A DNA stretch of 20,958 bases from IMG/VR virus record IMGVR_UViG_3300048999_000093, positions 1 to 20,958 of that record. One strand, written 5' to 3'. This stretch comes from a virus. A program made the translations under genes and the position numbers. Below, piece after piece: positions 687 to 13,116 of this stretch. The notes below the pieces were generated by a model. It saw nothing but the letters and a program-made list of their open reading frames with translations, was not told the origin of the DNA and searched no databases. The stretch's first letter is position 1. Every line of letters begins with the position of its first letter.

Positions 687-706
687 CCCGAGCTTGCCGG
701 GCCGGC

Positions 707-768: not shown

Positions 769-1068
769 ATGTACCAGCAGACCCCGTTCGAGCCCGTCGC
801 GCGTCAGCCCCGCAAGCGCCGCCGGGTGTTCTTGTGGTTCTTCATCGGCGTGCAGATCCTGTTCCTGATCTGGATCATCGCCGGCACCCACGCCGCCGCG
901 ACCGACCACACCGCCTGCACCGGGCTGGACGCGCAGACCTGCCAGTCCGCCAAGGACGCCGGGGCTACCATCGGCGCCGGGCTGGTCATCGCCCTGTGGG
1001 CGTTCATCGACTTCATCCTGCTCGCGATCTACCTGGTGGTGCGCCTGTCGCGGCGCGGTGCCCGCTGA
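769..1068 (+). CDS. Small two-helix membrane protein
   Basis: The 99-residue protein has a positively charged N-terminal stretch (RKRRR, 15-19), a first hydrophobic helix at about 20-39, a short loop with two cysteines (C50 and C58) that could be disulphide-linked outside the membrane, and a second helix at about 66-91 followed by RLSRRGAR. Both ends are basic, so both should face the cytoplasm. Similar two-helix proteins are common in actinophages and actinobacterial mobile elements, with no assigned function. It is the first gene behind a promoter/operator at 707-727 and overlaps the next start by one base. A holin is possible by topology, but nothing lytic lies nearby. Confidence 0.75.
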   Translation: MYQQTPFEPVARQPRKRRRVFLWFFIGVQILFLIWIIAGTHAAATDHTACTGLDAQTCQSAKDAGATIGAGLVIALWAFIDFILLAIYLVVRLSRRGAR

Positions 1069-1334
1069 TGGCCGCCAAGACGCTGGCCGCACGGCTGGAG
1101 GCCATCACCCGCAGGCAGGCCGCCGACCTGGAGAACGATCTCGGGGAGCTGTACGAGCTGCTGGAGATGGCGATGGGCGAGATCGACACGCTGAACGAAT
1201 CCCTGTCCGGGTGGGCCGATGACGGTACCGACCGTGACGAGCGGGCCGAGCACGCCGACGTCGTCCCGGAGCAGGCCAGCGATCTCAAGGTCACGCTCCA
1301 GGCCATCAGCGACAAGCTCTACGGCACGGCGTGA
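1068..1334 (+). CDS. Small coiled-coil-like acidic protein, unknown function
   Basis: This 88-residue protein starts at the ATG of a TGATG junction with the membrane protein gene. Residues about 5-48 are predicted helical with heptad-like Leu/Ile spacing (ARLEAI, LENDLGELYELLEMAM, EIDTLNESL), so it may form a coiled coil. An acidic linker follows, then a second short helix (DLKVTLQAISDKL). It contains no Cys and no catalytic signature. I do not recognise the family. Co-translation with the upstream membrane protein suggests shared expression only. Confidence 0.7.
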   Translation: MAAKTLAARLEAITRRQAADLENDLGELYELLEMAMGEIDTLNESLSGWADDGTDRDERAEHADVVPEQASDLKVTLQAISDKLYGTA

Positions 1335-1507
1335 CACCCAAGGGGCAGCACGGCGGCAACCGGTCGCAGAAGTCCGGGCTCGCCCGGGTCGCAGGCGCGA
1401 AGGGCGGACGCCAGCACACTGAACAGGGCAAGCCGCACGTGCCGCAGAAGGTGATCCGGGCCGGGAAGGTCACCAAGACCAAGTCGACCAAGAAACCGGG
1501 AACCTGA
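1331..1507 (+). CDS. Short highly basic protein, unknown function
   Basis: A 58-residue reading frame begins at GTG 1331, overlapping the previous stop (GTGA), and ends at the TGA that shares a base with the next ATG (TGATG). Both junctions match the style of the operon. It is rich in Lys, Arg, Gly and Gln (TPKGQHGGNRSQKS near the start, KVTKTKSTKKPGT at the end) and has almost no acidic residues, so it probably binds nucleic acid or is disordered. Codon third positions are almost all G or C, as in the neighbours. I do not recognise a family. Confidence 0.65.
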   Translation: MTPKGQHGGNRSQKSGLARVAGAKGGRQHTEQGKPHVPQKVIRAGKVTKTKSTKKPGT

Positions 1508-2025
1508 TGGAGCGCATGAACGCCAACCCCAACCCCGGGCGCTGCTCGAACTGCGGTGCGTCGTGGGCGCGGTGCGAGATGAAGCTGCGCCGCGACCAGC
1601 GGCCCTGCTGCTCGGCGTGCGCCACGACGGTGACCCACGACCAGGACCGCGTCGTGGAGACGGCCCGCACCCAGACCGAGGAGGATCTGCTCGGCTCGGC
1701 GCTGGCCACGGTCAACCGCCAGATCGAGCTGCTGGACGCCGCCGCCAGGGACAAGGCCAGCACCGAGGCCCGCGCCGAGTTCGAGTACAGGCTGGCATGC
1801 GAGCTGTGCTCCATGCTCGCCGACTACCTCAACGGCGTCCCGATCAAGCTGTCCGAGCTGTCGGTGGAGGCCCGCCGCCGCATCATCGCCTACCAGCACG
1901 CCGCTGGCCTCGGGCAGCTCGGCATCGCGGGCAGCGACGAGCACGGCCCGCTGCCGTCGGTGCCGCACGTCGAGCGCGCCCGCCGCGACGTGCTGGGCAA
2001 GGTCATCGACGTGGACCCGCTGTGA
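1507..2025 (+). CDS. Zinc-finger protein with helical C-terminal domain, unknown function
   Basis: The 172-residue protein begins with a Cys-rich module: C13-x2-C16, C23, then C34-C35-x2-C38, which fits one zinc-binding ribbon. The rest is helical (EDLLGSALATVNRQIELLDAAARDK and a long Glu/Arg-rich helix). A further Cys pair (C98 and C101 region, ACELC) lies in the middle. ATG 1507 is preferred because it overlaps the upstream stop; ATG 1516 is possible. The zinc ribbon suggests nucleic-acid or protein binding. I cannot assign a pathway. Confidence 0.7.
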   Translation: MERMNANPNPGRCSNCGASWARCEMKLRRDQRPCCSACATTVTHDQDRVVETARTQTEEDLLGSALATVNRQIELLDAAARDKASTEARAEFEYRLACELCSMLADYLNGVPIKLSELSVEARRRIIAYQHAAGLGQLGIAGSDEHGPLPSVPHVERARRDVLGKVIDVDPL

Positions 2026-2456
2026 GCGCCCTGCTGTCCGGTGCCCCGCCGCTGGCGATCTCGTACGGGCTGCTCACCCGGACCCTCCAGGACGCCGGCT
2101 GGATCATCACGGTGTTCAACCCGCACCCGGACCGGGCCGGCTTCCAGCTCCACGGTGAGCACCGCCACCGCGTCGAGACGAACGGTAAGCCGCTGCGCTG
2201 CTCGATCATCGTGTCCCAGCATGTGTTCGATGACCAGGACTGGCTGCACGCCTCGATCTATTTCGGGGACAACACCACCCCGACCTACCAGGACATGGCG
2301 ATGCTGCACCGCGCCGTGTTCGGCCGCCGCCGCCACTCCTGGCAGTGCTTCGTCCCCGCCGACCAGCACGTCAACCTCAAGGAGGTGCTGCACCTGTACG
2401 GCCGGGTCGATGGGCGCAACGTGCTGCCCGACTTCCGGATCCTGGGGTCGATCTGA
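2022..2456 (+). CDS. DUF7694-like phage protein
   Basis: This 144-residue protein starts at GTG 2022 in a GTGA overlap. The second half carries a recognisable phage-family pattern: DWLHAS (73-78), TYQDMAMLHRAVFG (88-101), FVPADQHVN (110-118) and LHLYGR (123-128) followed by the LPDF end. Proteins with this pattern are widespread in actinophages and are annotated as a domain of unknown function. The conserved His/Trp/Asp residues suggest a real enzyme or binding fold, but no activity is established. It ends the first gene group; a 156-base non-coding stretch follows. Confidence 0.7.
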   Translation: MSALLSGAPPLAISYGLLTRTLQDAGWIITVFNPHPDRAGFQLHGEHRHRVETNGKPLRCSIIVSQHVFDDQDWLHASIYFGDNTTPTYQDMAMLHRAVFGRRRHSWQCFVPADQHVNLKEVLHLYGRVDGRNVLPDFRILGSI

Positions 2457-2459
2457 GCA

Positions 2460-2526
2460 CCTACTCTAAACACCGCGCGCGCCCTGGAGCCCAGTGTTTC
2501 CGGGGCTCGCACGGCCTACTCGAAAC
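2460..2526 (+). repeat. Two direct 12-base repeats and small inverted repeats in the intergenic region
   Basis: CCTACTCTAAAC (2460-2471) and CCTACTCGAAAC (2515-2526) match at 11 of 12 bases and are spaced 55 bases apart. Between them, AAACAC (2468-2473) is inverted as GTGTTT (2494-2499), and GAGCCC (2487-2492) is inverted as GGGCTC (2503-2508). The second repeat contains the palindrome CTCGAAACGAG. This is one of the least GC-rich stretches of the window. It may be a binding-site array, a weak terminator for the gene ending at 2456, or both. Confidence 0.5.
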
Positions 2527-2567
2527 GAGCTTGAACGCCGGCTTGCGGAACTGTCTGGGGTCCGGGC

Positions 2568-2612
2568 TATAGTCTTACTTGACCAGACCGTTTCCACCCA
2601 AGGGAGACCGCA
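2568..2612 (+). promoter_or_regulatory. Promoter with palindromic operator upstream of the DUF932 gene
   Basis: TATAGT (2568-2573) is the best -10 match in the window. It overlaps GTCTTACTTGACCAGAC (2572-2588), which differs from the 711 copy at a single base. TTGCGG at 2543-2548 could serve as a -35, although the 19-base spacing is long. An additional half site GTCTGG lies at 2553-2558. The SD CACCCAAGGGAG (2595-2606) precedes ATG 2613. Confidence 0.65.
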
Positions 2613-3791
2613 ATGACGATCCAGACCACCACCCGCAACGCGACGCTCGACGACATGGTCGCCCTGCTCCGCGACCAGCACGCCCGCAAGCTCGACGTCG
2701 TCGCCCCGGCGACCGCGCTCCGCTCGCGCAACGCCTTGATCCACGTCCGGGGCGCCGAGCAGATCCTCACCCCTGACGGGGTCACCACCACCGACGGCGT
2801 GTACCGCCCGACCGTCGTGTTCGACGAGGGCATCGCCGACAAGCTCGGCATCCCGCTGGCCTACGTCCGCAAGCTCCGCGAGACCCGCCCCGACCTGTAC
2901 GACGCCAACGTCAACGGCTGGCTCCACGGCCGGTCGGTCACCCGCCTCGACGCCGGCACCGAGGTCATCGCCGAGCCCGACGCCCGCTCGTTCCTGGTCC
3001 GCGCGTTCCGCGACGACGACGGCGGCACCGGCGTGGTCCGGGCGCTGCTGTCCAACGGCTACGGCGTCATGGACAACCTCGACGCCCTGGTCGCGGTGCT
3101 CGACGGCGTGCAGCAGGCCGGGGTCAAGGTCGAGGTCGGCCGCTGCGACCTGACCGACCGCCGCATGTACGTGCAGCTCCGCTCGCCGGAGATCACCGCG
3201 CTGGCCCCCGAACTGCTCAGGGGCTACCGGTCCCCGTTCACCGGCGACTCGGGCGACAAGCTGCCCGTGGTCTCGGCCGGGCTGGTGCTGCGCAACTCCG
3301 AGGTCGGCGACGGCGCCTGGAGCCTGGCCCCGCAGATCGTGGTGCAGGTCTGCACCAACGGCATGACCGTGACCCGCGACGCGGTCCGCGCGGTGCACGT
3401 CGGCTCGAAGCTCGACGACGGCGTCATCCGCTGGAGCCAGGACACCGCGACGAAGAACGTCGAGCTGGTCGTGGCCAAGACCCGCGACGCGGTCGCCAGC
3501 TTCCTGTCGCCGGAGTACCTGAACGGCGCCGTGGCCCGCCTGGAGGCCAAGGCCGGCGCTCCGGTCGGCAAGGCCCAGGACACCATCACCGCCGTGGTGA
3601 AGCGGCTCGGGTTCGCCCAGTCGCACATCGACGGCATCCTGGACCACTTCATCAAGGGCGGGCAGGTCACCGCCGGTGGCGTCGCGCAGGCGTTCACCTC
3701 CTACAGCCAGACGATCGACGACGCCGACGTCGCCCACGAGATGGACGCCAAGGCCATCGAGGCGATGGAGTTCGTCGCAGCGAGCGCGTGA
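2613..3791 (+). CDS. DUF932 / phage-plasmid-like protein (TIGR03299 type)
   Basis: At 392 residues this has the usual length and layout of the DUF932 family found in phages and plasmids. An N-terminal alpha/beta part includes GVYRPTVVFDEGIADKLGIP and a conserved YRSPFTGDSGD segment; the central strand-rich region has PQIVVQVCTNGMTVTRDAVRAVHVG; the helical C-terminus ends in QAFTSYSQTIDDADVAHEMDAKAIEA. Function in the family is not established, although members often sit near recombination or single-strand annealing genes. Here it is a stand-alone unit: its own promoter/operator (2568-2588) in front, and a strong hairpin (3808-3844) behind. High expression is plausible. Confidence 0.85.
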   Translation: MTIQTTTRNATLDDMVALLRDQHARKLDVVAPATALRSRNALIHVRGAEQILTPDGVTTTDGVYRPTVVFDEGIADKLGIPLAYVRKLRETRPDLYDANVNGWLHGRSVTRLDAGTEVIAEPDARSFLVRAFRDDDGGTGVVRALLSNGYGVMDNLDALVAVLDGVQQAGVKVEVGRCDLTDRRMYVQLRSPEITALAPELLRGYRSPFTGDSGDKLPVVSAGLVLRNSEVGDGAWSLAPQIVVQVCTNGMTVTRDAVRAVHVGSKLDDGVIRWSQDTATKNVELVVAKTRDAVASFLSPEYLNGAVARLEAKAGAPVGKAQDTITAVVKRLGFAQSHIDGILDHFIKGGQVTAGGVAQAFTSYSQTIDDADVAHEMDAKAIEAMEFVAASA

Positions 3792-3807
3792 CGCTCACCC
3801 CGACGTC

Positions 3808-3844
3808 AGCCCCGGCGCAGCGCCCCCCGACGCTGCCCGGGGCT
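3808..3844 (+). terminator. Hairpin terminator behind the DUF932 gene
   Basis: AGCCCCGG (3808-3815) pairs with CCGGGGCT (3837-3844) and GCAGCG (3817-3822) pairs with CGCTGC (3831-3836). Only C3816 is bulged, and the loop is CCCCCCGA. This gives a 14-bp, very stable stem 17 bases behind the stop codon at 3791. No U-tract follows, which is common for actinobacterial terminators. The gene downstream starts at 3869, so the hairpin could also limit rather than abolish read-through. Confidence 0.7.
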
Positions 3845-3868
3845 GGCCCTCACCCGAGAGGATCCGCG

Positions 3869-4150
3869 ATGGCGACTCGCACCCGAGGCAAGCAGCTCGA
3901 CACCCGCGCTGCCGCCGCCAAGGCCGGCATCGCGCCGGGCTCGATCCAGCGGCTGCGCTACCGCGACCGCAAGGAGCCCCGCACCTACCCGGCCGGCCAC
4001 GAGCGGGCCGGCAAGCCGTGGCCGCGCTTCCCTGCGCCGGACGGTTACGTCGGCAACGTGCCGTGGTGGTACGAGTCGACGCTGGATGAACACCTCGCCG
4101 AGCTGCGCGGCCCTGGCCGCCCGCCGGCCCAACCCAAGGAGAACGGATGA
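3869..4150 (+). CDS. Small DNA-binding-like basic protein, unknown function
   Basis: The 93-residue protein starts at ATG 3869 behind the SD GAGAGGA (3856-3862). A longer frame from GTG 3788 would translate through the terminator hairpin and is rejected. The N-terminal half (LDTRAAAAKAGIAPGSIQRLRYRDR) looks like a short helix-turn-helix as in MerR/excisionase-like proteins, followed by RTYPAGHERAGKPWPRFPAPDGYVG and a WYEST-LDEHLAELRGPGRPP tail. The GRPP end is reminiscent of an AT-hook-like or excisionase tail. An excisionase or recombination directionality factor is possible, but no integrase is visible to support it. Confidence 0.65.
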   Translation: MATRTRGKQLDTRAAAAKAGIAPGSIQRLRYRDRKEPRTYPAGHERAGKPWPRFPAPDGYVGNVPWWYESTLDEHLAELRGPGRPPAQPKENG

Positions 4151-4344
4151 GGACAGCCAAGCAGGGCATGGCCGCGTGGGCGGCCGAGGTCGCGCACGAT
4201 CAGTCAGCGATCGCCGACGCCCGCAAGGCCGTGGTCTCGGTGCACGACCGACTGGGCATCAGCGACCGGCAGGCCGCCGAGCTGCACGCGGTGCTCGACG
4301 CCGAGCAGGCCCGGGTGCTGGATCGGTTAGCGGCCCGGGCGTGA
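4147..4344 (+). CDS. Small helical protein, unknown function
   Basis: This 65-residue protein starts at ATG 4147 in an ATGA overlap with the previous stop, behind the SD CCCAAGGAG. It is almost entirely helical (AAWAAEVAHDQSAIADARKAVVSVHDRL, then SDRQAAELHAVLDAEQARVLDRLAA) with a central LGISD turn. That turn between two helices could be a minimal helix-turn-helix, but the match is weak. No family is recognised. Confidence 0.65.
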   Translation: MRTAKQGMAAWAAEVAHDQSAIADARKAVVSVHDRLGISDRQAAELHAVLDAEQARVLDRLAARA

Positions 4345-4676
4345 GCCCGCGCAAGGCGCCCGAGCCTGAGCCGGACCTGTGGCCCCCGGGCCACGCCTGG
4401 ACGACGACGGTGAGCCTGCGTCTGATCTGGACCGACGGGCGCTGGCAGGTCGCCGCCGACCCGGCCCTGGTGCGTGACCCAAACGGCTGCGTGTGCAACT
4501 ACGGGCTGCACCTGACCGCCTCGCCCGATGTCCGCAACCGGTGCCGCGCCATCGCGGCCAACCTGGACGCCGAGCCGATGCCGTCGCCGATGCAGCTCGC
4601 CCGCCAGCTCGCCGCGCTGGCCGGGCTGATACTGGCCCCGATGCCCGAGGAGGACACCCCGCATGCCGAAGCCTGA
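4341..4676 (+). CDS. Hypothetical protein, unknown function
   Basis: The 111-residue protein starts at GTG 4341 (GTGA overlap). A Pro/Glu-rich N-terminus is followed by a strand-like TTVSLRLIWTDGRWQVAADPALV, a Cys pair in NGCVCNYGLHLT, a lone Cys at RNRCRAIAANLD, and a Leu/Ala-rich C-terminal helix. The three Cys plus His could bind a metal, but the spacing matches no finger that I know. Its last 14 bases overlap the start of the ParB-like gene, so it probably belongs to the same transcript as the hypermodification operon. Confidence 0.65.
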   Translation: MSPRKAPEPEPDLWPPGHAWTTTVSLRLIWTDGRWQVAADPALVRDPNGCVCNYGLHLTASPDVRNRCRAIAANLDAEPMPSPMQLARQLAALAGLILAPMPEEDTPHAEA

Positions 4677-5442
4677 CCGCACCGCGTTACCCGTCGAGAC
4701 CGTGCCCATCGAGAAGATCAAGACCGACCCGGACAACGCCCGCAAGCACAACCGCCGCAACCTGGACGTCATCCGGGCCAGCCTGTCCCGGTTCGGGCAG
4801 CGCAAGCCGCTGGTGGTGAACGGCCGGTACATGGCGATCGCCGGCAACGGCACCGTCGAGGTGATGCGCGAGCTGAACGCCGAAGCGGCCGAACAGGACC
4901 AGCCGGCCCCGTACGCGCAGGTCCACGTGACCCGGTTCCCGGGCACCACCGAGGAGGCCCGCGCCTACGCCATCGCCGACAACCGCTCCGGTGAACTGGC
5001 CGAGTGGGAGCAGGCGGTGCTGGCCGAACAGCTCGACGGGTTCAACGCCTCCCTGCTGGACGCGGCCGGCTTCGACCAGGTGGAGCTGGACGAGATCTTG
5101 GCCGCCGCCGCCAAGGCCGAGGCCGGGGGCAGCCAGTACGGCGAGCAGCAATTCCCGGGCCAGCAGCCCCACGCCGGCATGGCCGCGCTCGGCGAACGCT
5201 ACGAGGGCAAGGCGACCCGGTCGCTGTACTTCGAGTACACCACCGACCTGTTCGCGTGGGTGGTGGAGCGGCTGAACGACTACCGCACCGCCCACGAGCT
5301 GCCGAGCAACGCGGAGGCGCTGATTGCCGTGGTGGCCGCCGTGTCGGGGCGGACCCCGCCGGCTGGCCAAGCTGAGGGCGACGGGCAGCTCACCGACCCC
5401 GAGGCTGAGCCCGAGCAGGCCGAGGAGCCCTCCGATGCCTGA
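4663..5442 (+). CDS. ParB/Srx-like N-terminal domain protein, first gene of the hypermodification operon
   Basis: The protein has 259 residues and starts at ATG 4663 behind GAGGAGG. Residues about 10-115 show the ParB-like fold motifs: DPDNARKHN (22-30), IRASLSRFGQ (37-46), PLVV (49-52), IAGNGT (59-64) and AIADNRSGELAEW (103-115). This fold has nuclease, NTPase or DNA-binding roles, and phage versions are often fused or adjacent to DNA methylases. A C-terminal part holds SLYFEYTTDLFAWVVERLNDY, then an acidic Pro-rich tail. ParB-like proteins recur in published predictions of TET/JBP-linked DNA-modification clusters. A role in targeting or guarding modification is inferred. It overlaps the dioxygenase start by eight bases. 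A partition role is unlikely without ParA or parS. Confidence 0.8.
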   Translation: MPKPDRTALPVETVPIEKIKTDPDNARKHNRRNLDVIRASLSRFGQRKPLVVNGRYMAIAGNGTVEVMRELNAEAAEQDQPAPYAQVHVTRFPGTTEEARAYAIADNRSGELAEWEQAVLAEQLDGFNASLLDAAGFDQVELDEILAAAAKAEAGGSQYGEQQFPGQQPHAGMAALGERYEGKATRSLYFEYTTDLFAWVVERLNDYRTAHELPSNAEALIAVVAAVSGRTPPAGQAEGDGQLTDPEAEPEQAEEPSDA

Positions 5443-6310
5443 GCCCACCCGGCTGGAGCGGCGACGCCTGCTCACCCGCGAGCAGGCCGACGGGCTCGTC
5501 GGGGAGCTGGTCGCTGATGACCGCGCCGCGATGCAGCTCGTGGAGCCCACCATCGTGACCGACCCCGACCTGGGCGAGCCCGTGTTCGCCTACCTGCCGC
5601 TGCCCGACGGCTGGGTCGGCGCGCTCACCCAAGCGGTGCTGGCGATCGACGGGTTCACCGGGCTCGGCCGCGCCGGCAAGCTCCGCTCCCTGTCTCGGAC
5701 GTTCGGGATGGCTCCGCGCCGGCCGACGATGCTGCACGACTCGTGCCGGATCACCTCGCTCGCCCGCGACATGCCCGAGGTGCACAACACCCTGGCGATG
5801 CTGTCGCTGCACCTCGGGGACATGCTCCGCAGCTTCGCGCCGGCCATCGCCGAGCGGGACGTGCTGACCATCGGCGAGATCGACGACGACTGGCGGATGG
5901 CCCCGCACAGCCACTGGACCTCCGGCGTGGTCAATCACACCGCGCAGCTCCCGTACCACCGCGACGGCATGAACTTCGACGCCTGGTCGGCGATGCCGGT
6001 GATCCGCTCGGGCGTCTCGGGCGGGGGGCTGCATCTGCCCGAGTACGGGCTGACCACGTCGTGCCGCAACGGCTACGTGGTGTTCTTCAACGGCTTCCGC
6101 CTGGTGCATGGGGTGACACCACTGACCCGGATCCGCCCAGCAGCAGCAGGCGTCCCGCGCGGCTACCGGTTCTCGATCGTCTACTACGCCCTGCGGGGGA
6201 TGAAGGACTGCGCCACGTTCGCCGCCGAGCTGGCCCAGGGCCAGGCCAAGCGCACCGAGCGTGAGGAGAACCAACGGGCTGTCGTGAGTGGGGAGAAGTC
6301 ATGGCGATGA
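5435..6310 (+). CDS. TET/JBP-family 2-oxoglutarate/Fe(II) dioxygenase (DNA pyrimidine methyl hydroxylase)
   Basis: A 291-residue protein with ATG 5435 behind GGAG and overlapping the ParB stop. The iron ligands are clear: H175-x-D177 in LPYHRDGMNFDAWSAM and H225 in FRLVHGVTPL. R245 in GYRFSIVYYALRG fits the 2-oxoglutarate carboxylate contact. GGGLHLPEYG (196-205) and RNGYVVFFNG (211-220) are typical of the phage TET/JBP branch, as is TSGVVNHTAQ before the HxD. Known members oxidise the methyl group of thymine (JBP) or 5-methylcytosine (TET, including phage TETs) in DNA. Which base is used here is not visible: no cytosine-C5 methyltransferase lies in the window. The N-terminal 110 residues are family-variable. 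Neighbouring kinase, transferase and FAD genes imply that the hydroxymethyl product is further processed. Confidence 0.88.
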   Translation: MPEPTRLERRRLLTREQADGLVGELVADDRAAMQLVEPTIVTDPDLGEPVFAYLPLPDGWVGALTQAVLAIDGFTGLGRAGKLRSLSRTFGMAPRRPTMLHDSCRITSLARDMPEVHNTLAMLSLHLGDMLRSFAPAIAERDVLTIGEIDDDWRMAPHSHWTSGVVNHTAQLPYHRDGMNFDAWSAMPVIRSGVSGGGLHLPEYGLTTSCRNGYVVFFNGFRLVHGVTPLTRIRPAAAGVPRGYRFSIVYYALRGMKDCATFAAELAQGQAKRTEREENQRAVVSGEKSWR

Positions 6311-6495
6311 CGCTGGCGCAGGCTAAGGCCAAGATCGGCGCGAAGGTCCGCTACCACCCGCCCGGCGCGAACACGACCGCCCGCACCGAGGACGGGCGGA
6401 TCTCCTCGGTCAACGACCGCTACGTGTTCGTGATCTACGTCGGCGGCATGGGCGCCAAGGCGACCCGCCCCGATGACCTGGAGCTGCTGCCGTGA
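6301..6495 (+). CDS. Small SH3-like beta-barrel protein
   Basis: The 64-residue protein starts at ATG 6301 behind GGGAG and overlaps the dioxygenase stop; ATG 6307 is an alternative. The sequence reads as a chain of strands with the SH3/KOW-like pattern KIGAKVRYHPPG...EDGRISSVNDRYVFVIY...ATRPDDLELL, in which the final DDLELL closes the barrel. Small barrels like this bind nucleic acid or act as adaptors, and they are frequent in actinophages. Its place between the dioxygenase and the amino acid:DNA transferase suggests a DNA-binding accessory for one of them; this is inference. Confidence 0.75.
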   Translation: MAMTLAQAKAKIGAKVRYHPPGANTTARTEDGRISSVNDRYVFVIYVGGMGAKATRPDDLELLP

Positions 6496-7427
6496 CCGGC
6501 TCCTGGACGGAGGGCACCGGCTGGGCCGACTACTGCACCTTCCACCACTGGCAGCTCAAGACGGGCGATGTCGACCCGGTCTACCCGGTGCTGCGTGAGG
6601 TCGGTGAGCTGCTGGATCTCGACGGTGAGGCCCGGCTGTGGCTGACGTTCCTGCACGTCGCCTACTACCACCTGGGGAGCGCGCTGGCCGCGTTCGAGGC
6701 CACCGACGGGAAGGTGGCGATGCCCCCGGCTGAGCTGGTGCTGCCGACGGGGGTGGAGCGCCGGGCGCATCGCGACCACCGCCAGCTCCGGGCGCATCTG
6801 CGCTCGCTGGTCGACACGATCGACTCCTACGGCGGCATCGTCCCTTGGCTGGGTGGCGCCGCGTATGGCACGGGCTCCAGCCAGGACCGCTGGTCGGCCG
6901 TGTCGAGTGCGGTGACCCGGGTCCACGGCAACGGCCGGTGGGCCGCTTTCAAGACCGGCGAGATGCTGGCCGCCGTCAACGGCTTCCCGCTGGCCGCGCC
7001 GGACATGGGCCATGCGAACAGCACCGGCCCCCGCCACGGCCTCGCGGTGCTGTACCCGGACGTGCCGACTGGCAACCACCCGGACACCCTGGCCGAGCTG
7101 GACAAGCTGTCCCTGGCCCACCTCGCCGCGCTGCATGAGGCCGGGCTGCCGGCCACGCTGGAGACGGCCGAGACGACGCTCTGCGACTGGCACGCCGTCA
7201 CCGAGGGCCGCTACTACGTCGGCCATGACGTCGACCAGATGCTGGATCAGCTCCGCAAGTCCCCGACCCGCCTCGACGGGGTGGCGCTGATCGCCCGTGG
7301 GCGCGCCTTCGAGCCGCACCTGCTCGGCGAGGTCTCCGGCTGGCCGGGGGTGCGCAAGGAGTTGAACCGGCTGTACCGCGACCGGGGCCGGCTGCTGTGG
7401 TGGCTCGACGGCGTGAGCGCAGCATGA
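6492..7427 (+). CDS. Amino acid:DNA transferase (alpha-glutamyl/putrescinyl thymine pyrophosphorylase-like, clade 3 type)
   Basis: A 311-residue protein starting at GTG 6492 in a GTGA overlap. It has the recognisable blocks of the phage amino acid:DNA transferase family, a helix-rich fold related to DNA glycosylases: FHHWQLKTGDVDPVYPVL (17-34), WLTFLHVAYYHLGSAL (50-65), GNGRWAAFKTGEML (146-159), APDMGHANSTGPRHG (169-183) and TTLCDWHAVTEGRYYVGHDVDQM (228-250). Known relatives take a phosphorylated 5-hydroxymethyl pyrimidine in DNA and substitute an amino acid or amine for the phosphate. The kinase at 9202 would make the activated base, and the dioxygenase at 5435 the hydroxymethyl group. The amino acid used cannot be told from sequence. 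Confidence 0.85.
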   Translation: MTGSWTEGTGWADYCTFHHWQLKTGDVDPVYPVLREVGELLDLDGEARLWLTFLHVAYYHLGSALAAFEATDGKVAMPPAELVLPTGVERRAHRDHRQLRAHLRSLVDTIDSYGGIVPWLGGAAYGTGSSQDRWSAVSSAVTRVHGNGRWAAFKTGEMLAAVNGFPLAAPDMGHANSTGPRHGLAVLYPDVPTGNHPDTLAELDKLSLAHLAALHEAGLPATLETAETTLCDWHAVTEGRYYVGHDVDQMLDQLRKSPTRLDGVALIARGRAFEPHLLGEVSGWPGVRKELNRLYRDRGRLLWWLDGVSAA

Positions 7428-7624
7428 TCGACCGCAAGGGCCGGCGCGTCCGCACCCAGACCGTCGAGGAGAACGCCATGTGCCGCGACTGCCCCGAGGG
7501 CCGCTCGACGGTGATGGGCGTCGGTGGCCTGCTGACGGTCCGACAGGGCTACGCCCACCACGACGAGACCGGCCACACGGTCATCATCCAGCGGATCAAG
7601 CTCAAGGAGCTGAGCCGGCCGTGA
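7424..7624 (+). CDS. Small CxxC protein in the hypermodification operon
   Basis: The 66-residue reading starts at ATG 7424 (ATGA overlap with the transferase stop). ATG 7478 is a rival start (48 residues) because GAGGAG at 7466-7471 lies six bases before it. The longer form is preferred since all 18 codons between the two starts end in G or C, as expected for coding DNA here. The protein has a single CRDC pair, then VMGVGGLLTVRQGYAHHDETGHTVIIQRIKL, which looks like a small beta sheet. With only one CxxC it may bind zinc as a dimer. Function is unknown; it is translationally linked to the transferase and the FAD enzyme. Confidence 0.6.
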   Translation: MIDRKGRRVRTQTVEENAMCRDCPEGRSTVMGVGGLLTVRQGYAHHDETGHTVIIQRIKLKELSRP

Positions 7625-8484
7625 CGCTTCACCTGGAGGGCATGGGGTGGTTCGGCTCGGCGACCGCGCTTGCCCTGGAACGCGCCGGCATCCCGTTCAC
7701 CTGGAACGAGATCAACTCCCCAGTCCAGGCATGGCGCGCGAGCACCGGCATGGTCTATCCCGCCGGGGATGCCCGGTCGCGGCGCAACCTGGACCTGTGG
7801 TGGAACTGGTACGAATCCAAGCTATTCCCGCCCCGCACCGTCACCCCGGTCGCGTACGTCTACAAGCACAAGCACCCGCCGCACGAGGGCCACTACGACC
7901 AGCTCGACCTTGGACCGTTCCGGGTGGCGAAGCTGTCCGCGATCGCCGTGGACGTGCCGTTCATCGTCGACTCGGCGCGCCTCCAGTTCGCCGGCCGCCG
8001 CCGCGAGGCCGCGCCGCGTGGCGCACGGGTGATCCGCACCCACGGGTTCACCGAACGCTGCGCCGGCTTCCGGTGGGGCTGGAGCTGCCAGGTGCAGCTC
8101 GATCTACCGCCCGAGCTGGCTGGCCTGGCGCACCGCCCGGCGCTGTACTCCCGACGCGGCCGGTTCCAGATCGTGTACGCCTACGTCATCCCGACCAAGC
8201 CGGGCTGGTGGTGGGCCGGCTCGTCGCTGGTCCCGCAGCAGGTCGCCAAGCCGCTGGATGCCCACAAGCACCTGGAGCGCTGGCTGGACGCGTGGCGCGA
8301 GCTGTGGCCTAGCGTCCCGGTCACCGGCGTCGGCGAGCTGACGCAGGGCTGGCGTCCGGTCCCCGTTGAGGGCGACACCGGGACGCTGGACATGCGCTCG
8401 GTGCCGCCGCTGTGGCACTCCGGCGTCCGCTGGGCGCCGGAGATCGTCGATCGCCTCGTGGAAGTGGAGCGCCGCCGTGGATGA
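7621..8484 (+). CDS. Compact FAD-dependent oxidoreductase (D-amino-acid/glycine oxidase-like)
   Basis: A 287-residue protein starting at GTG 7621 (GTGA overlap). The N-terminus is a strand followed by the dinucleotide-binding turn G7-M-G-W-F-G12. STGMVYPAGD (41-50) resembles the second FAD-contacting segment of the DAO/ThiO family. Near the C-terminus, TQGWRPVP (241-248) matches the G-x-R-P flavin/substrate loop of that family. It is shorter than typical DAO enzymes (about 350-400), and the middle region is unlike them. In the thymidine hypermodification pathways of phages such as M6 and ViI, flavin-dependent lyases act on the amino acid attached to the base. A similar trimming step, for example on an attached glycine, is inferred here from operon context. 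Confidence 0.72.
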   Translation: MTLHLEGMGWFGSATALALERAGIPFTWNEINSPVQAWRASTGMVYPAGDARSRRNLDLWWNWYESKLFPPRTVTPVAYVYKHKHPPHEGHYDQLDLGPFRVAKLSAIAVDVPFIVDSARLQFAGRRREAAPRGARVIRTHGFTERCAGFRWGWSCQVQLDLPPELAGLAHRPALYSRRGRFQIVYAYVIPTKPGWWWAGSSLVPQQVAKPLDAHKHLERWLDAWRELWPSVPVTGVGELTQGWRPVPVEGDTGTLDMRSVPPLWHSGVRWAPEIVDRLVEVERRRG

Positions 8485-8863
8485 GCTGATCGCGCACCTT
8501 TTCGGCGACTACGTCGTGCAGTCGACCTGGATGGCCGAGGGCAAGTTGCGCGCCCATGGCCCGGCCGCCGCGCACGCCCTGACCTACGCGGCGTGCTTCG
8601 TGCCGCTGACACGCTCGCCGGCCCGGCTGGCGGTGATCGCCGGGACGCACTTCGCGATCGACCGCTGGCGTCTGGCCCGCTACCTGGTGTGGGCCAAGAA
8701 CCAAGCCGCGCCCCGGGCCTACCGCTACGAGCTGGCCGACGCCGGCCGCTCGGGCTACATCGAGTCCCAGCCGTGGCTGCACGTCTGGCTGGGGATCATC
8801 GCCGACAACAGCGTCCACCTGCTCATCAATCGGCTCGCGCTGAGAGGAGACCGCCGTGGCTGA
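8477..8863 (+). CDS. DUF3307-like membrane-associated protein
   Basis: The 128-residue protein starts at GTG 8477 behind GTGGAG and overlaps the FAD gene by eight bases. The opening HLFGDYVVQSTWMAEGK is the DUF3307 signature (His, Asp, Gln and Lys at residues 7, 11, 15 and 23). H33 and the H58-x3-D62 pair (THFAIDRW) follow, as in that family. Hydrophobic stretches at about 31-44, 50-60 and 100-118 suggest membrane association. DUF3307 has no established function, but its conserved His/Asp residues could bind metal. It is firmly inside the modification operon, which is unexpected for a membrane protein. Confidence 0.75.
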   Translation: MDELIAHLFGDYVVQSTWMAEGKLRAHGPAAAHALTYAACFVPLTRSPARLAVIAGTHFAIDRWRLARYLVWAKNQAAPRAYRYELADAGRSGYIESQPWLHVWLGIIADNSVHLLINRLALRGDRRG

Positions 8864-9209
8864 GTGCGTGTTCTGTGGGCGGATCGAGCGCGACGAGTTC
8901 GACGTGTCCGGCTACGGCGCGGTGTCGTTCGTGCCGTTGAAGCCGAGAGTGCCAGGACACCGCCTGTTCCTGCCGGTGCGCCACGTCGTGGACGCCCGTG
9001 ACCTCGGGGGGCTGCACTCGGCGACGGCGCTGGCCTCGTCATGGGCGAAGGACTGGGAGAACAACCCGGGCTATCGCGATGACTTCAACCTGATCACGTC
9101 CGCCGGTCCGGCGGCCACGCAGACGGTGCTGCATCTGCACGTCCACTACCTGCCGCGCCGACCGGGCGACGGGCTGCTGCTGCCCTGGACGGAGGCCCAT
9201 CGTGGCTGA
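8856..9209 (+). CDS. HIT-family nucleotide hydrolase/transferase
   Basis: A 117-residue protein with GTG 8856 behind GAGAGGAGA, overlapping DUF3307. The histidine triad is H93-L-H95-V-H97 followed by YLPRR. An N-terminal C4-x2-C7 pair matches the zinc-binding Cys pair seen in many HIT proteins, and NLITSAGPAATQTV precedes the triad as expected. HIT enzymes hydrolyse phosphoramidates, dinucleoside polyphosphates and nucleotidyl adducts through the middle His. The operon produces phosphorylated and amino-linked DNA bases, so this protein may remove side products or break an intermediate; that is inference. The C-terminus is slightly shorter than in typical HIT proteins. It could instead be a general house-cleaning enzyme. 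Confidence 0.85.
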   Translation: MAECVFCGRIERDEFDVSGYGAVSFVPLKPRVPGHRLFLPVRHVVDARDLGGLHSATALASSWAKDWENNPGYRDDFNLITSAGPAATQTVLHLHVHYLPRRPGDGLLLPWTEAHRG

Positions 9210-9762
9210 CCTGGTCTACCTGATCGGCCCGCCGGGCGTCGGCAAGACGACGCTCGTCACCGCGATGGTCAGCGGGCTCGACGGCTTCGCCGAGCACTTC
9301 ACCCCGATCCCGCACTTGCGACGCGGCGAGCTGGTCATGCCCGGCCGCAAGCGGGAGCCGTTCGGCGGCACCGACACCCTGGGCATGTCGATCGCCCGAG
9401 AGGCCGAAGCCTGGATCAGCTCGATCCCGGCGCCGCTGGTGCTCGCCGAGGGCGACCGGCTGGCCTACGCGAAGTTCTTCGACGTCGCCGAGTCCGCCGG
9501 CTACCGGCTGCACCTGCTCCACGCCGTGGCCAACCCTGGCACTGTGGCCTGGCGCCGCCGCCACCGCGCCGAGGAGGCCGGGACGCGCCTCCAGAACGAG
9601 TCCTGGGTGCAGGGCCGGGGCAGCAAGGCAGCGCGTCTAGCGGCCCGGTTCGGGGCCGCGCAGCTCGACCTGTCCCATCACGGCGCGGAGCCGATGGCCG
9701 CGACCGTGTTTGCGCTGCTCCGCAGGCGGGGAGTGCCGGTGAGCCTGCTTTGCCGAGATTGA
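9202..9762 (+). CDS. P-loop kinase, probable 5-hydroxymethyl-pyrimidine DNA kinase
   Basis: A 186-residue protein starting at GTG 9202 behind GGAGG and overlapping the HIT gene. Walker A is GPPGVGKTT (9-17). A Walker B-like strand LVLAEGDRLAY (79-89) follows, and an Arg-rich lid lies around WRRRHRAEE (117-125). FGGTDTLGM (54-62) and the segment QNESWVQGRGSKAARLA (131-147) resemble the phage 5-hydroxymethyl-deoxyuridine DNA kinases that activate the base for amino acid:DNA transferase. Presence of both a hydroxylase and that transferase in the operon is the strongest support. A nucleotide or small-molecule kinase cannot be excluded from the sequence alone. It is the last gene of the operon. 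Confidence 0.75.
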   Translation: MADLVYLIGPPGVGKTTLVTAMVSGLDGFAEHFTPIPHLRRGELVMPGRKREPFGGTDTLGMSIAREAEAWISSIPAPLVLAEGDRLAYAKFFDVAESAGYRLHLLHAVANPGTVAWRRRHRAEEAGTRLQNESWVQGRGSKAARLAARFGAAQLDLSHHGAEPMAATVFALLRRRGVPVSLLCRD

Positions 9763-9766
9763 CAGA

Positions 9767-9815
9767 CCAGACTATTGTCTGGGTTGGACAGACACCCCAC
9801 CCAAGGGAGCACGCC
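9767..9815 (+). promoter_or_regulatory. Promoter with double palindromic operator upstream of the zinc-ribbon gene
   Basis: TATTGT (9773-9778) lies between two overlapping inverted repeats. CCAGAC-TATT-GTCTGG (9767-9782) surrounds it, and GTCTGGGTTGGACAGAC (9777-9793) follows it. A further CAGAC sits at 9763-9767. A protein bound to either palindrome would cover the -10. TTTGCC at 9749-9754 is a weak -35, 18 bases upstream. The SD CACCCAAGGGAG (9798-9809) precedes ATG 9816. Confidence 0.65.
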
Positions 9816-10325
9816 ATGACGACACTCGCGTCCACCGCCTTCACCCACCGCCACGAGCTGACCTACCTCCGCAGCGTCAGCACCGGCTGGGACATCTCGC
9901 AGCCCGACGCCCAGTACGGGCACCGGCACGGCGTGTGCCGCGACTGCGGACGCGACATCACCCAGCTCGTCGAGGCCGGAGTGAAGGCCCGCGACAACCG
10001 GCACCCGTTCCGCACGAGCGAGGAGCTGGAGCTGATCGAGGCCGCGCACGCCGAGGCCCTGACCGTCTGCAAGCACTGCGGCGCGGCCGGCCACTTCGCC
10101 GACGAGCCCGCCGTCCGGACCTTCACCACGATGAGCGTCGGCGGTAGCCACGGCCCGTCGATCGAGGCGACCGACGCTGAGGCCGCCGTCGCCGAGGCGA
10201 CCCGCCTGGGCTACGAGGTGCTGGACGTCGTCGAGGGCGACAGCGGCGAGCTGGACATGCTGGTCATCCCGGACGAGCCCGCGTACGACCCGTTCGCCGT
10301 CGAGACCTGGAACGAGCGGCTGTAG
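9816..10325 (+). CDS. Zinc-ribbon protein, unknown function, own transcription unit
   Basis: The 169-residue protein has two widely spaced Cys pairs, CRDC (around 41-44) and CKHC (around 87-90), that together could hold one zinc. A His-rich stretch (QYGHRHGV) precedes the first pair. The C-terminal half is acidic, with a TDAEAAVAEATRLGYEVLDVVEGDSGELDMLVIP segment resembling a small alpha/beta fold. It ends with TAG, which is rarer here than TGA. It is flanked by a promoter with a double operator and by a strong terminator, so it is expressed on its own. No family is recognised. Confidence 0.75.
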   Translation: MTTLASTAFTHRHELTYLRSVSTGWDISQPDAQYGHRHGVCRDCGRDITQLVEAGVKARDNRHPFRTSEELELIEAAHAEALTVCKHCGAAGHFADEPAVRTFTTMSVGGSHGPSIEATDAEAAVAEATRLGYEVLDVVEGDSGELDMLVIPDEPAYDPFAVETWNERL

Positions 10326-10330
10326 ACGGA

Positions 10331-10364
10331 CCGGGCCAGCCCAATCCCCCGGGGGCTGGCCCGG
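10331..10364 (+). terminator. Strong hairpin terminator behind the zinc-ribbon gene
   Basis: CCGGGCCAGCCC (10331-10342) is perfectly complementary to GGGCTGGCCCGG (10353-10364), giving a 12-bp stem with a 10-base loop, five bases behind the TAG stop. No U-tract follows. It is one of the two strongest inverted repeats in the window. Confidence 0.75.
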
Positions 10365-10374
10365 CCACCCCATG

Positions 10375-10446
10375 CCGGCCCGGGCGATGCTGACTAGCCT
10401 CCGTTGCCCGGGCCGGTGATCATTCCGAGGAGGAGCGCCTTGATCA
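10375..10446 (+). promoter_or_regulatory. Leader hairpin and SD-flanking repeats before the PTPS-like gene
   Basis: CCGGCCCGGGC (10375-10385) is the exact reverse complement of GCCCGGGCCGG (10406-10416): an 11-bp stem with a 20-base loop holding GACTAGCCT, a possible -10 or structured element. Directly behind it, the palindrome TGATCA occurs at 10417-10422 and again at 10441-10446. These flank the SD GAGGAGGAG (10427-10435) and overlap the TTG start. Pairing of the two TGATCA copies would place the SD in a loop. A translational or riboswitch-like control is possible but unproven. Confidence 0.45.
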
Positions 10447-10808
10447 TCCTGTCCCACCACGCCCGGTTCGCCGCGATCCACGCCCTGGATAACCGGCCGC
10501 GCACCGACCCCGAGGGGCGCCTGCACGGGCACACCTTCGACGTCACGGCCCGCTTCGACGCCAGTAGCGGCGACATCTCGCCGACGGCCGAGATCGACTA
10601 CTGGCTGGCCACCTACATGGACGGGGTGAACCTGTCCGACACGCTGCCGTTCCCCGCCTCGGGCGCCGCGATCGCCGAGCACCTGTTCGGCGTGTTCTAC
10701 CAGTTCACGCCGGCCCTGGTCGAGGTCGAGGTGATCGTGGATCAGGGCGCCGGCTTCACCTACCGACCCGACGACGCGATGCCGTCGGTCCCACCCGAGG
10801 AGACCTGA
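10440..10808 (+). CDS. 6-pyruvoyl-tetrahydropterin synthase / QueD-like protein with altered active site
   Basis: A 122-residue protein. TTG 10440 is chosen as start because the strong SD GAGGAGGAG is directly upstream. The zinc site of the family is retained: H14 in RFAAIHAL, and H29 and H31 in EGRLHGHTFDV. In QueD the sequence before HGH is CGRL; here the catalytic Cys is Glu (E25), a change known from the PTPS-III branch. The family's Asp-His-His segment is also lost (YMDGVNLSDT), and the C-terminal Glu motif is VDQGAGFTYR. Canonical enzymes make pterins or the 7-deazaguanine precursor carboxy-tetrahydropterin. No FolE, QueC or QueE is visible, so the product is uncertain and catalysis may be lost. 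Confidence 0.72.
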   Translation: MIILSHHARFAAIHALDNRPRTDPEGRLHGHTFDVTARFDASSGDISPTAEIDYWLATYMDGVNLSDTLPFPASGAAIAEHLFGVFYQFTPALVEVEVIVDQGAGFTYRPDDAMPSVPPEET

Positions 10809-10809
10809 G

Positions 10810-11130
10810 ATGCCCGAGCTGACCACCCACGTCACCACCACGACCCGCCACATCATCGAGCTGGCCGAGGACGAGCGCTGGGTGGAGACCCGCCACTACG
10901 GCAAGCAGCAGTTCGACGTTGACACCATCCTGATCGACATCGAGACCGACGACCGGGCCAACCCGCCGAAGGTCAGCATCCACACCCGGGGCAAGCGTCG
11001 CTTGAAGGCTGGCGGCACGAACGGCGCCATGCTGGGCAACGGTTACTACCCGACCCGGCTCCTGGTCGACAAGAGCCTGCCGGCCGAGATTGCCGCCGCG
11101 ATCGAAGCCGCTGGGGTGGTGCTGCCGTGA
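10810..11130 (+). CDS. Hypothetical protein, unknown function
   Basis: This 106-residue protein starts at ATG 10810, nine bases after GAGGAGA. It appears beta-rich: THVTTTTRHIIELAEDERWVETRHYG, then DVDTILIDIETDD and KVSIHTRGKRRLKAG, with a short C-terminal helix PAEIAAAIEAAG. It has no Cys and no catalytic motif. It lies one base after the PTPS-like stop, so co-expression is likely. No family is recognised. Confidence 0.7.
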   Translation: MPELTTHVTTTTRHIIELAEDERWVETRHYGKQQFDVDTILIDIETDDRANPPKVSIHTRGKRRLKAGGTNGAMLGNGYYPTRLLVDKSLPAEIAAAIEAAGVVLP

Positions 11131-11390
11131 AGCTGTTCCAGGGCATCCCGCGCTACCGCCTCGACGAGCTGACCGCGATGCCTACCACTGCGCAGGACAA
11201 CTTCGGCGACCTCAAGTGGGACGACGGCCGGGTCCGGCTGTGGCTGTCCCGCACCGGGCTGGCCGACGGCGAGCCGTTCGCGCATACCGTCACCGCCGAG
11301 CTGTGGGACGCCCGCACCGGCGCCTGGCGCCTGCTCTACCACTACGACGCGAAGCGGCCCTCAATCGTGTCCTGCCCGGGGGGCTGCTGA
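11127..11390 (+). CDS. Hypothetical protein, unknown function
   Basis: The 87-residue protein starts at GTG 11127 (GTGA overlap). The middle reads as strands, DGRVRLWLSRTG and HTVTAELWDARTGAWRLLYHYD, typical of a small beta-sandwich or barrel. It ends with SCPGGC. The next gene starts inside its stop (TGATG). Nothing more specific can be said. Confidence 0.7.
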   Translation: MKLFQGIPRYRLDELTAMPTTAQDNFGDLKWDDGRVRLWLSRTGLADGEPFAHTVTAELWDARTGAWRLLYHYDAKRPSIVSCPGGC

Positions 11391-11878
11391 TGCCCTACGC
11401 CGAGGGCACGAACGTGTCGGTGGACCGCTCGATGAGCGAGCTGCAAGCCCTGCTCCGCAAATACGGGGCTAGCGGGTTCGCGTTCGGCTCCGATGACGAC
11501 GCCCGCCAGACCCGGGTGCAGTTCAAGCTGGCCGGCCGGGTGTACCGCCTGGACGTCGCGCACCCCGACCCGGCTGCGTACCGGGTGCGGATGAACAACG
11601 GCCAGTACCGCTCCGAGCAGGCCGCTACGAACGCCGCCGCCCGCGAGGAGCAGCGGCACTGGCGCTCGCTGGTGCTGGTCATCAAGGCCATCCTGGTCGG
11701 CGTCGCCGACGGCGTGCTGACCGCCGAGGACGCCCTGATGGCGTTCACCGTGCTGCCCGACGGGTCGACCCTGTCGCAATGGGCCGCGCCGCAGCTCGAC
11801 CACGCGCTGTCCAGCAAGCAGATGCCGGGCCTGCTCCCAGGCGCCGGCCCGATCCCCCTGGAAGGACGCCGATTGTGA
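11390..11878 (+). CDS. Conserved actinophage-type hypothetical protein
   Basis: A 162-residue protein with ATG 11390 in a TGATG junction. The N-terminus (MPYAEGTNVSVDRSMSELQAL, then LRKYGASGFAFGSDDD) resembles a family common in actinophages and mobile elements, in which VSVERS-AEIE-LL-RYGA is followed by a strand. TRVQFKLAGRVYRLDV and AREEQRHWRSLVLVIKAILVGVADGVLT continue that pattern. The family has no proven function. The last part, LPDGSTLSQWAAPQLDHAL, is helical. A role in DNA metabolism is sometimes suspected from neighbours, but no evidence is seen here. Confidence 0.7.
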   Translation: MPYAEGTNVSVDRSMSELQALLRKYGASGFAFGSDDDARQTRVQFKLAGRVYRLDVAHPDPAAYRVRMNNGQYRSEQAATNAAAREEQRHWRSLVLVIKAILVGVADGVLTAEDALMAFTVLPDGSTLSQWAAPQLDHALSSKQMPGLLPGAGPIPLEGRRL

Positions 11879-12216
11879 CCCACATCCCTGACGAGGCCGA
11901 CCTGAAAGCAGTCGAGGAACAGGTCGGCCTTGGCGTGCCCACCGATCCCGGCGATGTGTTGCGGCTGATCACCGAGATCCGCCGGGTCCGCGAGAAGCCC
12001 AACGCCGACGAGCTGATGAACTGCTCGCTTGCCACCGGCGCGCTGTTCATCATGCTGGGCGACCCCCGCCTGCGCGAGCTGTACCCCTCGCTGGGACGCG
12101 TCGTCACCCTCGACACCGCGTCGTTCGGCCGCGCCGGGCTGGAGATCGAGCTGGGCATGCTGCGCTCGCCGTACCGGCTGTTCGTCGAACGCGTCCCGGA
12201 CTTGGAGGACCGATGA
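11875..12216 (+). CDS. Hypothetical protein, unknown function
   Basis: A 113-residue protein starting at GTG 11875, four bases before the upstream stop ends. It begins with an acidic helix (DEADLKAVEEQV), then GVPTDPGDVLRLITEIRRVREKP, then a hydrophobic core helix NCSLATGALFIMLGD. No membrane segment is long enough to be sure of, and no motif is recognised. Good codon third-position bias and overlaps on both sides support it as a gene. Confidence 0.7.
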   Translation: MTHIPDEADLKAVEEQVGLGVPTDPGDVLRLITEIRRVREKPNADELMNCSLATGALFIMLGDPRLRELYPSLGRVVTLDTASFGRAGLEIELGMLRSPYRLFVERVPDLEDR

Positions 12217-12449
12217 GCCTGGAGCGAGCCCGGCAGAACCTGGCCGCCGCCGAGGAGCTGACGCAACAGGCTGCCACCATGATGGCCACGCCGGGCGCGA
12301 AGACGGCCAACATAACCCCGGCCGCCTCGCTGGGCATGGCCGCTGCCCAGATCCACGCGACTCGGGCCGTGGCCGAGGCGCTGGTCACGATCGCCGAGCA
12401 CCTGACCGCACCCCCGCCCAAGCCGGACAGGTCCGCCGGTGACCTATGA
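12213..12449 (+). CDS. Small helical protein, unknown function
   Basis: The 78-residue protein starts at ATG 12213 (ATGA overlap) behind GGAGG. It is Ala-rich and helical (SLERARQNLAAAEELTQQAATMM; AAAQIHATRAVAEALVTIAEHL) with a Pro-rich end. The pattern suggests a helical hairpin. No family is recognised. Confidence 0.65.
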   Translation: MSLERARQNLAAAEELTQQAATMMATPGAKTANITPAASLGMAAAQIHATRAVAEALVTIAEHLTAPPPKPDRSAGDL

Positions 12450-12811
12450 GCCAGCCGGCCCTGTTCCCCGACCTGCCAGACCCGCCGGCACCTGAGCCGG
12501 GCCTGTCGGCGGGGCAGCGCCTCACCCTGCGCCAGCGCGCTGACGTCGCCGTCGGACGCCACCCCCTGACCCACGGCCGGCTGAGCGCCGACTCGGCCGC
12601 CCGGTGCGGCAACTGCCGGTTCCGGGTGTTGGAGCGCTGGCACGACCGCACCTACCCGAAGTGCGCCGCCCGCGACGGCGCCCGGATCGCCCACTCGGCG
12701 CAGTCGGATGTCCGGGCCTGGTGGCCCGGCTGCACCGACCACGAGTACGGCGACCCGAAGCTCTCGCCCGACGCTGCCCGCTCCGGCCCCGCCCGAGGAG
12801 ACAGCCCGTGA
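12446..12811 (+). CDS. Phage zinc-finger-like protein (CGNC...KC...C)
   Basis: A 121-residue protein starting at ATG 12446. Residues about 50-100 carry CGNCRFR, YPKCAARDG, then SAQSDVRAWWPGCTDHEYGD and a DPKLSPDAAR end. This order (CxxC, KC, then DVRAWWPxCxxHE) recurs in many actinophage proteins and should bind one zinc through four Cys. The N-terminus is Pro-rich and disordered. Function in those phages is unknown; a small DNA- or RNA-binding role is likely from the fold. Confidence 0.7.
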   Translation: MSQPALFPDLPDPPAPEPGLSAGQRLTLRQRADVAVGRHPLTHGRLSADSAARCGNCRFRVLERWHDRTYPKCAARDGARIAHSAQSDVRAWWPGCTDHEYGDPKLSPDAARSGPARGDSP

Positions 12812-13116
12812 CCCGCACCCTGCGCTGGACGGAGGGCTCACTGATCCGCACCCCTGACCACGGCGTCTACGCGCTGATCAGAGAATCGGTCCGCCACGAG
12901 CGCCCGTACTACCAGCTCCTGTGGTACCCGACCCCGGGCGCTTTGCCGATCAACCTGGGCGACAGCCGCGAGCAGTACTCACGCGACTGGAACCGCGCCG
13001 GCACCATCAAGGAATGCCGCGCCCTCGCGCGCGAGCACTACGCCGCACAGGTCGCCACCAACACCACACCCCCCGAGGAGAACGCTCATGGTCAACCGTC
13101 CAGCTCGTCCCGCTAA
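12808..13116 (+). CDS. Hypothetical protein, unknown function
   Basis: A 102-residue protein starting at GTG 12808 behind GAGGAGA. The first 60 residues look like a small beta domain (GSLIRTPDHGVYALIRE...YYQLLWYPTPGALPINLGDS), followed by a helix ECRALAREHYAAQVA. Its last 29 bases overlap the next gene's start, a longer overlap than usual here. The Ser-rich last residues are probably read-through of the neighbour's start region rather than functional sequence. Confidence 0.65.
   Translation: MTRTLRWTEGSLIRTPDHGVYALIRESVRHERPYYQLLWYPTPGALPINLGDSREQYSRDWNRAGTIKECRALAREHYAAQVATNTTPPEENAHGQPSSSSR

Follow-up and report, generated by a model that had tools for sequence, protein, structure and literature searches.

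An operon in an actinobacterial-type phage fragment that probably begins thymidine hypermodification by TET-type oxidation of finished DNA

The virus record IMGVR_UViG_3300048999_000093 was analysed over its whole length of 20,958 bases (the window), and attention centred on an operon of its plus strand, at positions 4663-9762, in which genes for a ParB-like protein and a TET/JBP dioxygenase are followed by genes for an amino acid:DNA transferase (ADDT), a flavoenzyme and a P-loop kinase. As judged from sequence and fold comparisons, this operon probably encodes a phage pathway of thymidine hypermodification whose first step is an oxidation of the finished DNA. The TET enzyme, together with the ParB-like protein, would oxidise the methyl group of thymine in the phage DNA to give 5-hydroxymethyluracil; the kinase would phosphorylate the new hydroxyl; ADDT would displace the phosphate with an amino acid attached through its amino group, glycine being the likeliest because a solved homologue (8z2m) is a glycinyltransferase; and the flavoenzyme would oxidatively cleave the amino-acid adduct, plausibly leaving 5-aminomethyl-deoxyuridine. 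In phages such as PaMx11, 5-hydroxymethyluracil comes from a dUMP hydroxymethylase, and TET would fill that role here. Each reaction, the amino acid and any biological use are predicted from families, folds, conserved residues, co-occurrence and operon swaps.

Hypermodification that proceeds from a TET-made base is not a new idea: Iyer et al. are said to have predicted in 2013 that TET-made hydroxymethyl pyrimidines are starting points for it. The window locus is a new member of a cluster already in print as the 'thymine hypermodification system' of Rhodococcus phage Tonitrus (PMC11955845). An earlier prediction, made from the letters of the window (the original prediction), had proposed an oxidation-first route through kinase, transferase and flavin steps; this is still the best-supported reading, but it had been published before, and the kinase lies outside the families of 5-hydroxymethyl-deoxyuridine (hmdU) kinases. 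What is new here is the swap of the front end, the residue evidence for thymine, the fold and operon slot of the flavoenzyme, and the recognition of three of the nine genes as cargo.

The run of nine mutually overlapping open reading frames (ORFs), all on the plus strand, was re-derived from the sequence, with consecutive overlaps of 8, 10, 4, 4, 4, 8, 8 and 8 bases, and the motifs first reported for it are present (HxD...H...R in TET, GPPGVGKTT and GGTDTL in the kinase, GMGWFG in the flavoenzyme). A search for a promoter, a terminator or an RNA family found none. Profiles or folds agreed with the earlier naming of the TET/JBP, transferase, P-loop kinase, FAD enzyme, ParB, DUF3307 and HIT (histidine triad) genes, but gave no profile support to an 'SH3-like' and a 'CxxC' protein. 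The ParB-TET-ADDT-flavin-kinase core is also found in phages of Gordonia, Rhodococcus and Mycobacterium and in about 80 IMG/VR contigs; because the same genes stay adjacent in so many other contigs, their adjacency is far beyond chance. Gordonia phage Wooper, Tonitrus and Mycobacterium phage Reprobate carry ParB-TET-ADDT-kinase and a flavoenzyme at the left end of the genome.

The 2-oxoglutarate/Fe(II) dioxygenase of the TET/JBP family (5435..6310) scored 24.8 bits against Pfam Tet_JBP (PF12851; E 1.5e-5), below the gathering cut-off of 34.9, and its homologues in related operons score above that cut-off. Despite the sub-threshold score the assignment is firm. A profile of 31 family members matched human TET2 (2.2e-7) and NgTet1 (4.6e-7) in the PDB, the best 26 PDB fold matches of an AlphaFold2 (AF2) model (pLDDT 91.7) were all to TET-family DNA dioxygenases (NgTet1, CcTet, TET2 or CMD1), and the Fe(II)/2-oxoglutarate residues H175, D177, H225 and R245 are all kept in 76 of 76 unique relatives. 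Its most likely reaction would be the conversion of thymine to 5-hydroxymethyluracil in DNA. The gene upstream (4663..5442) encodes a protein with a match to PHROG 620 (ParB-like, 3.6e-29) and none in Pfam. Operon contents were counted over 102 unique transferase-bearing contigs, many or most of them fragments and a few of them database phages. TET lies nearby in 86 of these, 78 of which also have ParB, and ParB accompanies none of the seven operons of thymidylate-synthase (TS) type. Because of this co-occurrence the ParB-like protein may be a DNA clamp or targeting partner of TET.

ADDT (6492..7427) was recognised by its Pfam family (PF18724) at 78.2 bits against a cut-off of 26.2 (9.9e-22). 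As a single sequence it matched 25qc_A (2.3e-6) and the glycinyltransferase 8z2m (0.024) in the PDB, and hhalign related it to PaMx11 gp46 (99.2%, 5.5e-20); a scan with PaMx11 gp46 alone returned three loci. It would be expected to exchange the phosphate of 5-phosphomethyl-deoxyuridine for an amino acid. The P-loop kinase (9202..9762) belongs to Ploopntkinase3 (PF18751; 93.8 bits against a cut-off of 27, 1.2e-26), is present in 41 of 44 transferase-bearing records, and is presumed to phosphorylate hmdU in DNA. Profile searches ruled out membership of the hmdU-kinase families, with no match to HMUDK_HMUD1 (PF18748) or HMUDK_hel (PF18723); its resemblance to the gp49 kinase of PaMx11 is remote (hhalign 94.9%, 4.4e-8). 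In Mycobacterium phage records (e.g. NC_022064 gp2 and gp5) TET homologues widely bear the label 'queuine tRNA-ribosyltransferase' or 'DpdA-like', and homologues of the kinase are widely called 'terminase small subunit' or 'adenylate kinase'; the names of PHROG 6059 and 800 repeat these labels.

The operons of TS type bear directly on the role of TET. Beside the 86 contigs with a TET front end, seven of the 102 had a TS-fold enzyme and none had both (Fisher p 6e-7, a descriptive value that ignores shared ancestry). When whole records were searched, PF12851 was found in 41 of 44 transferase-bearing records and PF00303, the TS-fold family that takes in the phage dUMP hydroxymethylases, in two (G037 and PaMx11, the latter being the positive control for this search), both of them TET-negative; a further 26 records gave 18 with TET and seven with PF00303. 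Locus L088 of record G037 contains, in a row, HMUDK_hel, a TS-fold enzyme, ADDT, a flavoenzyme of the window type and a Ploopntkinase3 kinase, with neither TET nor ParB. Its ADDT falls within the TET-type clade of the transferase tree, and its flavoenzyme shares 45% identity with the one in L094, a locus that has TET and ParB; L088 is a natural swap of the front end with the same types of downstream enzyme. The reverse mix is seen in L108, L109 and L111, which combine a PaMx11-type transferase, kinase, helical domain and TS enzyme with a window-type flavoenzyme.

The TS-fold proteins also indicate which base is the target. Asn at position 177 (E. coli ThyA numbering) selects dUMP over dCMP (PMC8670742), whereas the Asp form is dCMP-specific (PMC6400193). 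Asn was found there in all seven TS-fold proteins, and the downstream enzymes in the swap operons therefore act on a uracil-type base, which by parsimony would be the base in the TET operons as well. The replacement of ThyA Trp 80, seen in all the TS-fold relatives, was set aside as a marker of hydroxymethylases, as T4 dCMP hydroxymethylase has Trp82 in the folate site (PMC6400193). Neither PF00303 nor the C5-methyltransferase family PF00145 was found in the window or the sister records G001 and G002 (all three incomplete or of unknown completeness) or in the complete genomes of Wooper, Tonitrus and Reprobate, and the annotations of Wooper and Tonitrus list neither kind of gene. With both families absent from complete relatives, thymine in DNA is the one substrate on which such phages can count. 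In its fullest form, the proposal would be that a single pathway can open with either TET or dUMP hydroxymethylase, that TET and ParB make 5-hydroxymethyluracil after replication, and that the route leads to 5-aminomethyl-deoxyuridine; this we put forward tentatively, its chances being a little short of even.

Several observations weigh against the oxidation-first thymine pathway. The Fisher value overstates independence, because the contigs are mostly fragments and TET and TS operons separate along the transferase phylogeny; about two changes on the transferase tree suffice to produce the split, L088 is one swap only and sits on a long branch, and a distant record (G049) has a weak TET match and a TS-fold match far apart. 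HMUDK_hel, the helical domain of known hmdU kinases, is present in each of the seven records of TS type and was not found in any of the 41 of TET type, and the TET-type kinase must therefore find its base in another way. The kinase and the flavin product are the weakest links of the mechanism, and the 5-aminomethyl product is uncertain because the match to PaMx11 gp47 is clear by fold but not by sequence and D-amino-acid-oxidase (DAO) folds are common.

The flavoenzyme (7621..8484) was identified by its AF2 fold, its GxGxxG motif and its operon slot, with no match in Pfam, including Pfam DAO. The model (pLDDT 88.9) has the GxGxxG motif and the acidic residue after strand 2 that characterise the DAO fold, and its PDB matches included D-amino-acid oxidase (3e-11), iminodiacetate oxidase, glycine oxidase and PaMx11 gp47 (8z79, TM 0.63; PDB title 'N-alpha-GlyT FAD-dependent lyase'); in BFVD it matched Phelemich gp4 (TM 0.65/0.70). 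No clear sequence link to gp47 was found (hhalign 26.6% over 34 columns, or 50% over 265 columns by way of the Rep4 family), and the comparison rests on structure and operon position. Flavoenzymes of two families, window type and Rep4 type, share this slot; the latter family, which fills it in most TET operons, is homologous to gp47 (hhalign 98.7%, 4.4e-16), and the window type occupies the gp47 position in L108, L109 and L111. Neither family was recognised in seven TET operons, and the flavin step therefore looks like late tailoring. Flavoenzyme and ADDT homologues are also adjacent in a group of distant phages (L112-L115) where no kinase, TET or TS was recognised within 10 kb; TAA codons occur within the TS-fold matches of two of these records, which suggests a recoded stop.

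By analogy with PaMx11 gp47 the flavoenzyme may act on amino-acyl thymine, and Wen, in 2024, reportedly found that gp47 action leaves 5-aminomethyl-deoxyuridine, which is plausibly the end product here too. The pathway might instead act on thymine but end in a new base, with the flavoenzyme oxidising or desaturating the attached amino acid, for example. We regard this as somewhat unlikely. The window enzyme shares only its fold with gp47 and lies outside Pfam DAO, and a late tailoring step, lacking a recognised enzyme in seven TET operons, may vary; yet in three PaMx11-type operons the window type stands exactly where gp47 would, and its close folds are oxidases of amino acids and of N-substituted glycines.

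Less likely still is that TET oxidises 5-methylcytosine and that the kinase and transferase then build an amino-acyl cytosine. As far as the summary of Burke 2021 in PMC12730594 goes, characterised phage TETs act on 5-methylcytosine alongside C5-methyltransferases and glycosyltransferases. A C5-methyltransferase does occur in six of the 44 transferase-bearing records, in two of them near the operon, but the window, G001, G002 and the complete relatives have none, in L088 a dUMP-type enzyme stands in for TET, and the solved relatives of the transferase and lyase (8z2m and 8z79) act on thymidine derivatives. A further point on the side of cytosine is that some ADDT-linked TETs are about 67% identical to TETs found beside glycosyltransferases of the TAGT family (TET-associated glycosyltransferases), which acts on 5-hydroxymethylcytosine; if TAGT-linked TETs act on 5-methylcytosine, the argument for thymine is weaker for this TAGT-like TET subfamily, to which the window TET is only about 20% identical. 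TETs without ADDT were tried as a contrast set rich in C5-methyltransferases and proved uninformative, since none of 31 such contigs, mostly short, had a methyltransferase. The set revealed a class (L133, L163 and related IMG/VR loci) in which ParB and TET stand with TAGT and have no ADDT or kinase nearby; this TET-TAGT class possibly makes a glycosylated hydroxymethyluracil, a base-J-like modification.

The predicted thymine pathway probably does not draw on the whole operon. The nine genes had been proposed to form one pathway, of which a core of six genes or fewer stands. The 64-amino-acid ORF first described as SH3-like (6301..6495) matched only a PHROG of unknown function (phrog_18065, 1.7e-7) and is kept only in the closest sisters (L005-L008). 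A 66-amino-acid ORF with one CxxC (7424..7624), between ADDT and the flavoenzyme, yielded no homologue or family and may not be a gene; in L006, where it is absent, ADDT joins the flavoenzyme directly with the same 4-base overlap. The DUF3307 membrane protein (8477..8863; Pfam 31.3 bits against a cut-off of 23, 2.3e-7) has relatives in 129 phage records, mostly of Streptomyces phages, and the HIT protein (8856..9209; HLHVH motif, Pfam 38.6 bits against 21.5, 1.7e-9) in 136 phage records; both probably lie outside the core pathway. The sisters L006 and L007, with ADDT and kinase 93% identical to those of the window, keep the 4- and 8-base overlaps of the window in the order ParB-TET-small ORF-ADDT-flavoenzyme-kinase, and the full nine-gene set was seen only in the window and the near-identical contig L005. 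The CxxC, DUF3307 and HIT genes are regarded as inserted cargo, because they are missing in the sisters and relatives of HIT and DUF3307 are scattered through unrelated actinobacterial phages, and nothing supports a catalytic role in the pathway for these three or for the small ORF. Although the three sit gapless among the core genes with the same overlaps, a single nine-gene pathway, with HIT clearing AMP or a phosphoramidate by-product, is very improbable given their absence from every cluster other than L005 and the scatter of the HIT and DUF3307 relatives.

Next to the operon lies a PTPS/QueD-like gene (10404..10808, plus strand; PTPS 1.6e-4, just under the cut-off; PDB QueD 0.024), which is kept in the sisters L006-L008 and encodes Glu at the catalytic Cys position of QueD. 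An ASCH-like protein (13471-14004; Pfam 0.0044, under the cut-off) has a copy in L006 that is 86% identical, the ASCH domain being a proposed reader of modified bases. The fragment, with a G+C content of about 71% and no tRNA in its 20,958 bases, is from an actinobacterial-type phage; a WhiB-like protein at 20361-20912 (Pfam 0.0079, under the cut-off) is consistent with an actinobacterial host. Over bases 1-14694 the window matches contig IMGVR_UViG_3300048997_000093 at 99.9% identity, and from 14694 onward the identity falls to 85-91% with gaps, a sharp mosaic boundary.

If the oxidation-first proposal is true, phages would have a thymine-oxidising TET/JBP pathway outside the kinetoplastid base J system, and its opening reaction would be like the one that begins base J synthesis. 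The modification would probably serve restriction evasion. With the swap against dUMP hydroxymethylase, a general prediction becomes specific enough to be tested for base, enzymes and product in cultured relatives (Wooper, Tonitrus and the cluster B mycobacteriophages), and a thymine-selective TET with its kinase and transferase would be a tool for placing amines in finished DNA.

Among known systems, the five genes of Tonitrus, and those of Wooper and its relatives, share with the window ParB, TET, ADDT, kinase and the same flavoenzyme, at identities of 42-50% for TET, ADDT and the flavoenzyme, about 40% for the kinase and less for ParB; the window differs in that the flavoenzyme precedes the kinase, the CxxC, DUF3307 and HIT genes are inserted and the operon is not beside terminase. 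The left end of cluster B mycobacteriophages (Reprobate, Phelemich, Acadian) likewise has ParB, TET, ADDT and a Ploopntkinase3 kinase in one operon, but there a Rep4-type flavoenzyme fills the slot, and TET and the kinase are labelled queuine transferase and terminase small subunit. With the pathway of PaMx11, M6 and ViI (hmdU to phosphate to amino-acyl thymine to tailored base) the window has in common an ADDT homologous to gp46, a flavoenzyme of the gp47 fold and a P-loop kinase distantly related to gp49, whereas it has TET and ParB in place of the dUMP hydroxymethylase and the hmdU-kinase helical domain. Phage systems of cytosine hypermodification, made up of a C5-methyltransferase, TET and a glycosyltransferase, share the TET/JBP dioxygenase; in the window there is no C5-methyltransferase, and a kinase and transferase replace the glycosyltransferase.

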